This document shows positions 29,982 through 32,137 of a DNA stretch of 64,000 nt, piece by piece. The translations under genes and the position numbers were made by a program. The notes below the pieces were generated by a model that was given only the letters and a program-made list of their open reading frames with translations, was not told the origin of the DNA and searched no databases. Numbering within the stretch: the first letter of the stretch is position 1; each line of letters opens with the position of its first letter. The stretch comes from an uncultured Pseudohongiella sp. GTDB lineage: Bacteria; Pseudomonadota; Gammaproteobacteria; Pseudomonadales; Pseudohongiellaceae. The DNA lies in the NCBI GenBank assembly GCA_902531515.1, contig CACAEJ010000001.1:124001-188000 (forward strand), read 5' to 3'.

Positions 29982-30584
29982 TCAGGAGTTGGTTCGTCTG
30001 TCAATAAAACGCTCAAGCATCTCATAGGGCTGACAACCTACTAACAGATTCTGTTTATACTGAAAAGTAGGAACACCAGTGATGCCAAATTCTCGGCTTT
30101 CTTGCCAATCCGCATCGACAAGAGATTTGAATGACCGCTTTTCTAATACCTCTTTCGCTTCTTGCTTATCGAAACCTGCTTTTTCAGCAATTCTTAACAA
30201 CTCATTTAGATCACTGATGTTTTTACCTTCGACGAAGTAAGCTCGGTAAATTAAGTTGTGTATGTCTGATTCGCCATTTTGGACATCAGCCCATTTTCCA
30301 AGTTCCTGAGCCAGGCGACTATTGAAAGTATGAGTGCGCTCTCCATAGTCAAGCCTGGCGTCACGCATTAACCTTTTCATCTTCTCTTTCATTGGGGTTA
30401 GATCCCTACCTGGAAATAGTTTCTCAAGGTTTGCCCCTTCAATCGGTGTTTCCGGATGCAGAGGGAAGTGGATTAAATGCACACCTATGGGATGATCAGT
30501 CTTCAATTTTTCAATACTTACAGTACTGAGGTAACACCATGGTCAGACGTAATCTATGAAAACCCTCAATAGATTGTCTTTCAT
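29982..30584 (-). CDS. FrnE/DsbA-like thioredoxin-fold protein with in-frame UGA: probable selenoprotein
   Basis: Conventional calling gives a 174-residue fragment from a TTG at 30506 that lacks the family's N-terminal strand and redox motif. The same frame runs upstream to ATG 30584 and is interrupted only by TGA at 30545-30543, giving 200 residues that start MKDNLLRVFIDYV-U-PWCYLS. Residue 14 is where DsbA/FrnE proteins have the first Cys of CPWC; Trp16 and Cys17 are intact. The remainder has the helical insertion and GITGVPTFQYKQNLLVGCQP with the cis-proline. A stable hairpin follows the TGA at bacterial SECIS distance. The ATG overlaps the upstream gene's stop (ATGA), supporting both start and expression. 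The likely role is thiol-disulfide or isomerase chemistry; no signal peptide is seen, so probably cytosolic. A nonsense mutation is the alternative. Confidence 0.82.
30511..30529 (-). promoter_or_regulatory. Bacterial SECIS-like hairpin
   Basis: On the transcript, UCAGUACUGUAAGUAUUGA folds into 8 base pairs (one G-U) closed by the loop GUA. The loop G is the first loop base and lies 22 bases after the UGA. Bacterial SECIS elements read by SelB have a short stem with a G at the start of a small loop about 16-37 bases after the UGA, so both form and distance fit. It lies inside the coding frame, as required in bacteria. Confidence 0.72.
30543..30545 (-). other. In-frame UGA, proposed selenocysteine codon
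   Basis: TGA replaces the codon for the nucleophilic Cys of the CPWC motif (context D-Y-V-UGA-P-W-C-Y). The same gene uses TGG for Trp, and neighbouring genes end in TGA, so a genome-wide reassignment of TGA is unlikely. Confidence 0.78.
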
Positions 30585-32137
30585 TCTTCAGCCTTACTAC
30601 TAGGGATTAGTGAGACAACCTTGCCGCCTTCACCATGCTCAAACAGCAGATAGATATTTCCATTTAAACCCATTTCCACGTCTCGAATGCGGCCTATGCC
30701 TTCAAAAAGAGTCTCTGTCTCGACAAAGCGGTTATTCTCTATATCGATCCGGAATAAGCTCCGCGATTTGAGAGATCCAACAATAAAGTCACCTTTCCAA
30801 TTAGGAAATTTTTTGCTCTGACTAATGATGAAACTGGAAACGGCGGGAGATGGTGTCATATCCACGACCGGCTGTGTTATGTCGGATAGCTCAAAAGCAA
30901 TTCCGAGGTCCAGACCATTCACTCGACTCCCGTCGTAGTGCAAACCTGTCGAGTAAAGGGGCCACCCATAATTTTCTGCAGGGAGTAACCGATTAATCTC
31001 GTCGCCCCCTCGAGGGCCGTGTTCACTTCCCCAAAGTTCGCCATTGTTTTGGTCATATTCAAGCCCTTGCGGGCTTCGATGACCATAGGTGTAAATACTT
31101 TCATAAACATTCTCAACGCCGAAGTATGGATTGTCTTCAGGAATGGAGCCGTCATCATTGACACGATGAATTTTGCCACATGGTGTAGCTAAATTTTGGA
31201 TACCTCCTCCTTGTCCGCCGCACTTCATACCTATTGAGAAGTATACATGACCCCTATTATCAAAAGTTATGCGGCCTCCGGCGCCAACGTCCCCAGCAAA
31301 AAAATAATCCTCTATCGGAGCCTGCCAAATTACTTCCTGATCTATCCAGTTAGTCCCATCCAATCTGCCTCGAACGAGTCTGTTCATGGAAACAGGCCTC
31401 TCCTCTCGACGACTTGCTTCATTGCAGTCTGTGCAGCGGTGGCTGTGATATAGGTAGATCCAGCCATTCTCAATATAATTCGGGTGAAGTCTGATATCAA
31501 ATAACCAGCCCATACCCCTTTCAATGTCAATTCGCGATTCTAGTCTGTATATGTCGTCGTAAGCTGTGGGAGTACCTTGGATGAGATCCGACCGACCGTC
31601 GTCTTGACGAATGATTCGTACCCCCTTAGTTTTTTCGGTGACGAGAATGTCACCGTTTGGCATCGGCTCGATTGAGAAGGGGAGTGGGTCGAGATCTTCA
31701 GCGACAATTTCTAAACTAAAGTTGTGCAAAGAGGTTTCGAAAACCTCGTCAGGTATAGTAAAGTCTGTGTCATAATTCGAAGTGACATAGCCCACATTAT
31801 TTCGCGTTTCCATCAAGTACATGGCCAAGCCACGGATTTCAGTCGGGCTGAAGATGTCTCGCCAACTTGGCATGCCTTGAACTTCATACCCGCTGGTTAT
31901 ACTAGTGACGATTGCTTCTATCGACTCTCCATGAATTAGGCTGCCCCGAAGCGTTGATCCTTGACCGGTGCCCTCTAAGTTTTCCCCGTGGCAAACTGCA
32001 CAATTATTTTGAAACATCAAGCGTGATTCAGTAACCCCGGAGTATGCTTCGGCCTCTTGCTGAGCTATCGATTGACCTGCTGACGATAACCCAAACGCCA
32101 GAAAAAGAAGATAAAGAACTAATTTGAGGGATTGCAT
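30581..32137 (-). CDS. Exported cytochrome c / PQQ-dependent sugar dehydrogenase-like fusion
   Basis: 518 residues. A signal peptide (about 1-26, ending SIAQ) is followed by a monohaem cytochrome c domain (Cys46, Cys49, His50 in NNCAVCHGENLEG, with GMPSW supplying the likely Met ligand), then a glucose/sorbosone-dehydrogenase six-bladed propeller with GDILVTEKTKGVRII, YGHRSPQGLEYD and SEHGPRGGDEINRL. The fusion should pass electrons from a quinone-dependent oxidation to its own haem in the periplasm. Substrate unknown; no PQQ synthesis genes are in the window. Its TGA overlaps the ATG of the FrnE-like selenoprotein gene by 4 bases. Confidence 0.88.
   Translation of the reverse strand: MQSLKLVLYLLFLAFGLSSAGQSIAQQEAEAYSGVTESRLMFQNNCAVCHGENLEGTGQGSTLRGSLIHGESIEAIVTSITSGYEVQGMPSWRDIFSPTEIRGLAMYLMETRNNVGYVTSNYDTDFTIPDEVFETSLHNFSLEIVAEDLDPLPFSIEPMPNGDILVTEKTKGVRIIRQDDGRSDLIQGTPTAYDDIYRLESRIDIERGMGWLFDIRLHPNYIENGWIYLYHSHRCTDCNEASRREERPVSMNRLVRGRLDGTNWIDQEVIWQAPIEDYFFAGDVGAGGRITFDNRGHVYFSIGMKCGGQGGGIQNLATPCGKIHRVNDDGSIPEDNPYFGVENVYESIYTYGHRSPQGLEYDQNNGELWGSEHGPRGGDEINRLLPAENYGWPLYSTGLHYDGSRVNGLDLGIAFELSDITQPVVDMTPSPAVSSFIISQSKKFPNWKGDFIVGSLKSRSLFRIDIENNRFVETETLFEGIGRIRDVEMGLNGNIYLLFEHGEGGKVVSLIPSSKAEE

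Follow-up and report, generated by a model that had tools for sequence, protein, structure and literature searches.

DsbA-like selenoproteins and FrnE

A DsbA-like selenoprotein appears in a 2005 study of the Sargasso Sea, represented by nine sequences assigned to COG2761, with a UXXC motif and a predicted SECIS element (PMC1088965). A family called DsbA 1 (pfam01323, UxxC, 63 sequences) appears in the 2008 GOS study, where it is reported as more abundant in marine samples (PMC2398784). A DsbA-like selenoprotein is also counted in surveys from 2006 (PMC1794560) and 2016 (PMC5029168), and the family is listed in reviews from 2022 (PMC9312934) and 2026 (PMC13188914), the latter using the name 'DsbA-like protein form 1'.

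COG2761 is also the COG of frnE from Deinococcus radiodurans (PMC1978522). A study of D. radiodurans FrnE (DrFrnE) proposes that this protein acts as a disulfide reductase, with a C-terminal CX4C motif that helps to regenerate the active site, and states that the motif is missing from some other FrnE proteins too (PMC8945050). The word FrnE occurs zero times in the main text of the selenoprotein papers examined (e.g. PMC1088965, PMC2398784, PMC13188914), which may explain why the link to FrnE is easily overlooked. Our literature search for selenoprotein together with FrnE gave no title on a bacterial FrnE selenoprotein, and the search for selenocysteine together with Pseudohongiella found nothing.

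Here we analyze a gene of this type from an uncultured Pseudohongiella, in a stretch of 64,000 nucleotides that we call the window. Judged by its sequence and that of its relatives, the window gene is a real member of the DsbA-like selenoprotein family known since 2005, and not a new kind. It shares with the UxxC proteins of COG2761/PF01323, as described in the literature, the Pfam domain, the UxxC motif, a SECIS element after the UGA and an occurrence in marine bacteria; the likeness is one of domain, motif and published descriptions, and on these we found no defining difference. The earlier note on this DNA was right that DsbA-like selenoproteins occur in marine metagenomes, while its doubt as to whether the FrnE type had been described with selenocysteine (Sec) is answered by the COG2761 UxxC family of 2005 and 2008. 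The finding therefore confirms the list of known marine selenoproteins and does not extend it.

A reading frame interrupted by a single UGA

The complete FrnE/DsbA-like selenoprotein gene lies on the minus strand (29982..30584) and is assigned by its match to PF01323 and by structure matches to FrnE. Its frame runs over 200 codons from an ATG at 30584-30582 to a TGA terminator at 29984-29982, and contains one internal TGA only, at codon 14 (30545-30543, minus strand), in the context DYV-U-PWCYLS. With this codon read as Sec, the translation is MKDNLLRVFIDYV-U-PWCYLSTVSIEKL..., with 200 residues before the terminator and the motif UPWC in place of CPWC. The mechanical ORF call reports a 174-residue frame from a TTG at 30506, which is 26 codons past the ATG. 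The earlier note had extended the frame by these 26 codons, broken only by the TGA at codon 14, and our analysis confirms this, on the minus strand.

We scanned both strands of the window for further read-through frames, with at least eight codons before a TGA, at least 60 after it and little overlap with longer ORFs. Five frames were left, and by eye only the codon-14 gene has family-like sequence on both sides of the TGA, which the note had described for this gene. Tryptophan 16 of the same gene is encoded by TGG, and 12 of the 46 window ORFs of at least 200 aa are terminated by TGA, which thus acts as a stop elsewhere; both points agree with what had been noted from the sequence.

The gene begins within the end of another one, as previously remarked: the stop codon of the upstream gene overlaps the start codon of the selenoprotein gene as ATGA (30581..30584, minus strand). 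This upstream gene (30581..32137, minus strand) codes for a protein with cytochrome c and glucose/sorbosone dehydrogenase domains (PF07995, 8.1e-85; PF13442, 3.7e-9). The arrangement is found likewise in the four nearest relatives (L022, L023, L024 and L025), in which the last codon of the upstream gene ends at the first base of the Sec gene. From the ATGA overlap, the two genes are probably co-transcribed.

Cysteine and selenocysteine codons in relatives

Relatives were collected from public genomes with six peptide patterns, and the best 80 of 178 confirmed stretches were aligned. Codon 14 is TGA in 49 of these 80, TGT in 18 and TGC in 13, and nothing else, so that the cysteine homologues anticipated at U14 do exist; one of the six patterns contains CPWC with a Cys codon, which makes 49:31 a biased Sec:Cys ratio, although relatives with any other codon 14 could still enter through the remaining five patterns. 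No further stop occurs in the aligned frame of the best 80, and among them TGA persists at codon 14 down to 49% identity, while D11, P15, W16, C17 and Y18 are identical in 80/80. The TGA forms include entries labelled as Gamma-, Beta- and Alphaproteobacteria, SAR324, Deltaproteobacteria and a Thermoanaerobaculia bacterium. On the evidence of these relatives, chance or sequencing error is excluded as the origin of the TGA at codon 14.

A quick tree of 81 rows, built without the Sec, hairpin and residue-184 columns, implies three changes between Sec and Cys versus a mean of 25 in shuffles, a result that gives the number of changes and not their direction. Because Sec and Cys members occur side by side in this family across so many bacteria, it lends itself well to asking what is gained by Sec over Cys. 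A plasmid search returned 371 records, all below 60% identity and uninformative on Sec.

A SECIS-like hairpin downstream of the UGA

Immediately downstream, pair counts and folding delineate a SECIS-like hairpin (30511..30529, minus strand). Its stem begins 13 nt past the UGA and has seven pairs, formed by positions 17-23 with positions 29-35 (counted from the T of TGA), closed by the five-nucleotide loop UGUAA, in which position 2 is a guanine. We compared it between TGA and Cys forms by pooling 79 TGA loci, some from the same genome twice, into 65 distinct 60-base segments including that of the window gene, and 31 Cys loci into 29 distinct segments; 13 Cys forms from sister genera were added later. 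At least six of the seven pairs can form in all 65 TGA segments, and all seven in 63, versus at least six in 0/29 Cys segments; the guanine at loop position 2 is present in 65/65 TGA segments versus 5/29 Cys segments. Among the later sister-genus Cys forms, six of the seven pairs are found in one of 13 (L151).

Synonymous sites follow the same pattern. In the TGA set, codons 19-24, which hold most of the hairpin, have the six lowest synonymous entropies of 105 measured positions, and the serine codons are fixed: Ser20 is AGT in 64/64 and Ser23 is AGT in 46/46 of the sequences having that residue. Among the Cys forms, entropy was measurable for five of codons 19-24, and these rank from 31 to 65 of 100.

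The case for the hairpin is one of sequence conservation, and neither of folding energy nor of covariation. In 49 distinct rows, 99.4% of cells are paired, versus 27-43% when the partner is slid. Compensation on both sides of a pair occurs once in these rows (L069), and in three further cases a change on one side leaves the pair intact; this covariation is weak: the observed score is reached by 17 of 500 shuffles, two of six slid structures (+1, 0.047; +3, 0.031) score above the true one (0.029), and the +2 slide likewise has one double change. The folding energy of the window's hairpin is ordinary with respect to shuffles (z -1.12), and no Rfam family matched the window at gathering thresholds.

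In one homologue with a Cys codon (TGT; L055:1003-1062), the sequence following the codon resembles a decayed SECIS element, and this gene is a possible case of reversion from Sec to Cys.

In the mechanism that we propose, the SECIS hairpin would lie just after the in-frame UGA of the mRNA, and SelB bound to it would deliver the Sec-tRNA to this UGA. The product would be a 200-residue thioredoxin-fold protein of the FrnE/DsbA type with the active site Sec14-Pro-Trp-Cys17, in which Sec14 would act as the attacking nucleophile and Cys17 as the resolving residue, in order to reduce or isomerise disulfides.

Selenocysteine machinery in the genome and its relatives

The assembly that contains the window consists of 81 contigs and is 67% complete. 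Both selA (520 bits) and selB (380 bits versus a cut-off of 242) are clearly matched in it, together on a single contig of 19 kb. In contrast to these two, no selD was found above the cut-off and no tRNA-Sec at the gathering score in this 67% complete assembly. Of the Sec genes that the earlier note had advised looking for in the same genome, selA and selB were thus detected; the failure to find the other two partly matches an outcome that the note had named as speaking against a selenoprotein. A 54-bit selD match was rejected, as its frame reads as ThiL from the translation and stands beside ribE- and nusB-like frames. Seven places matched tRNA-Sec, all under the gathering score, and ARAGORN calls the tRNAs at these places Leu, Ser, Gly, Trp, Tyr, Cys and Phe. 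The selB and selA genes (contig C24, L012:2095-11813) are separated by about 6 kb and lie on opposite strands, and the frames between them are permease-like, pyruvate phosphate dikinase-like and dehydrogenase-like, names that come from reading the translations.

The machinery is widespread in related genomes. Of the 84 genomes of the same genus, 79 have selD above the cut-off and 71 have tRNA-Sec, and in the family as a whole tRNA-Sec is above the cut-off in 86/137 genomes and selA in 93/137. For this family search, we defined the TGA form as a strong match with one TGA (67 genomes) and the Cys form as a match with E <= 1e-40 and no stop (13 genomes), and left out the other 57 of the 137 genomes, which have more distant matches, the decayed copy discussed below or no match. 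Among the 67 TGA-form genomes, 59 have selA, 55 tRNA-Sec, 63 selD, and 65 either selA or tRNA-Sec; in one of them (G115, 85% complete) none of selA, selD and tRNA-Sec was found. The gene selA is present in only 2/13 Cys-form genomes versus 59/67 TGA-form genomes (Fisher p 4.5e-7, kinship ignored, and genomes not listed with a match taken as lacking selA).

Because codon 14 pairs Cys with Sec among relatives, the hairpin is in all 65 distinct TGA segments and in none of the 29 distinct Cys segments, selA and selB are in the genome, and the TGA form co-occurs with the machinery in the family, the TGA is almost certainly read as Sec, as the earlier note had proposed. We therefore put the probability that the locus is a functional, SECIS-driven bacterial selenoprotein gene of the FrnE/DsbA type at about 95%, a figure derived from comparative sequence data.

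It could be argued that local decay of the Sec pathway has deprived this organism and its nearest relative of selD and tRNA-Sec, leaving the TGA as a dead stop in both. Like the window's own genome, that of the nearest relative (G066) has selA, while a search for selD and tRNA-Sec found neither in it, but the two assemblies are only 67% and 84% complete, respectively. A relative with 74% identity (G120), itself 66% complete, has selA, selD and tRNA-Sec, and two others (G055 and G070) have selA and selD. The two genes flanking the tRNA-Sec of G120 have no clear orthologue by protein search in the window's genome, G066, G055 or G070: one is unmatched, and the other gives 25-26% identity or nothing in the four genomes, while both match themselves in the G120 control. 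A DNA search for the same region in these four genomes, run without a positive control, came back empty. A gap common to all four assemblies would account for this absence, as might a true difference between lineages. Against local decay, TGA, hairpin and reading frame are all intact in the window's gene, and we regard such decay as very improbable.

A pseudogene, or a TGA due to sequencing error, from which at most a TTG-started downstream fragment would be translated, appears more improbable still. The failure to detect selD and tRNA-Sec in the window's own assembly would suit it, as would a decayed copy in one genome of the same genus (G077, L164:1498-1938), which has a second TGA and a deletion and has lost the second active-site Cys, although it keeps a hairpin-like sequence with six of the seven pairs. 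This copy is of the kind that, according to the earlier note, would speak against a selenoprotein if found in close relatives; against it stand 67 of the 84 same-genus genomes, which carry the TGA form, the remainder having no match (14) or a weak match only (G074 and G092). Moreover, a dead gene is not expected from the recurrence of TGA without other stops in the 49 of the best 80 relatives, nor from synonymous sites conserved exactly at the hairpin, and the TTG-started fragment would be left without the first strand and the active site. Least probable of all is a reading of UGA as tryptophan or another amino acid through a variant code or a suppressor, for which no support was found, and against which stand the Cys codons of 31/31 non-TGA relatives among the best 80, the TGG at W16, the 12 long window ORFs that stop at TGA, and the presence of selA and selB.

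Two observations concern selD itself in the genus. One match (L140, in genome G064) has one internal TGA and, from its sequence, is probably a selenophosphate synthetase that itself contains Sec. No internal stop interrupts the remaining 78 matches of the genus, and most of them belong to frames of about 750-800 aa, which suggests a fusion.

Fold and comparison with FrnE

The full-length protein matches PF01323 (DSBA) with 104.7 bits (cut-off 25.6; 7.1e-30) over residues 7-194. Among solved structures, its sequence matches DrFrnE (2.3e-13) and Streptomyces coelicolor SCO1869 (5.1e-10). We modelled the protein with AlphaFold from an alignment of 51 sequences and obtained a mean pLDDT of 93.8. 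When the model was searched with Foldseek against the PDB, its best five matches were entries of D. radiodurans FrnE (best 1.0e-13, TM 0.86 by query) and the sixth was SCO1869. In the model, residue 14 follows the first strand (5-10) and directly precedes the first helix (15-30), and hence sits at the place expected of the active-site motif. V171-P172, present in 80/80 of the best 80 relatives, is what we take to be the cis-Pro loop of the fold.

DrFrnE (DR_0659; PDB 5cnw, 5co3, 5coh, 5cp1, 5xwh) has CPWC at the place where the window protein has UPWC. The two differ in that the window protein has Sec for the first Cys, is 200 residues long versus 260 in the PDB chain, and has Cys184 instead of the C-terminal CX4C reported for DrFrnE (PMC8945050). 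Inspection by eye saw no signal peptide in the 200-residue protein, which is probably cytoplasmic by analogy with its homologue; we infer this location, as well as the substrate and the direction of the reaction (reductase or isomerase), from D. radiodurans FrnE.

In NCBIfam release 20.0, no model reached its cut-off on the full-length protein. The Rcas_1661 family thioredoxin-like (seleno)lipoprotein (NF041057) is also thioredoxin-like and, as its name implies, may or may not contain Sec; it was rejected as an assignment with 33 bits versus a cut-off of 190, over residues 108-196 only. Since the ORF call gives a 174-residue fragment without the active site and no NCBIfam model is reached, genes of this kind are easily missed. 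The same genome contains a second DSBA-family gene (contig C8, L001:1501-2079; 99.8 bits) with no internal stop.

A further cysteine in the gammaproteobacterial forms

Besides residues 14 and 17, the protein has a single cysteine, C184 (30033-30035, minus strand), in the motif VGCQP after the last strand. Among 30 gammaproteobacterial Sec forms, 28 share it, one has Asn and one does not cover the position; it is also present in 30/30 TGA loci of the family search, a set overlapping the gammaproteobacterial one; two further TGA copies (G134 and G135) have it as well. The other Sec forms have Cys at this position in 0/19, with Ala in 17 and Phe in two. Cys forms covering residue 184 lack the cysteine in every case (0/43, from 44 Cys forms in all): all 31 of the relatives set have Ala (Cys in 0/31), and the 13 from sister genera have Phe or Tyr in 12, with one not covered.

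On the 81-row tree, Cys at residue 184 requires two changes. It is thus the trait of one lineage, which precludes a statistical tie to Sec; its presence in Sec forms is possibly a new feature. One may speculate that the gammaproteobacterial Sec lineage has a three-centre redox protein, in which Cys184 would serve as an extra resolving or regenerating thiol for Sec14/Cys17, taking over the role of the CX4C of DrFrnE, and would be an adaptation linked to Sec and not a neutral mark of the lineage; we consider this unlikely. Cys184 is placed in the loop that connects the last strand with the last helix, presumably the place of the substrate-facing Val-Gly-Ala loop of thioredoxin.
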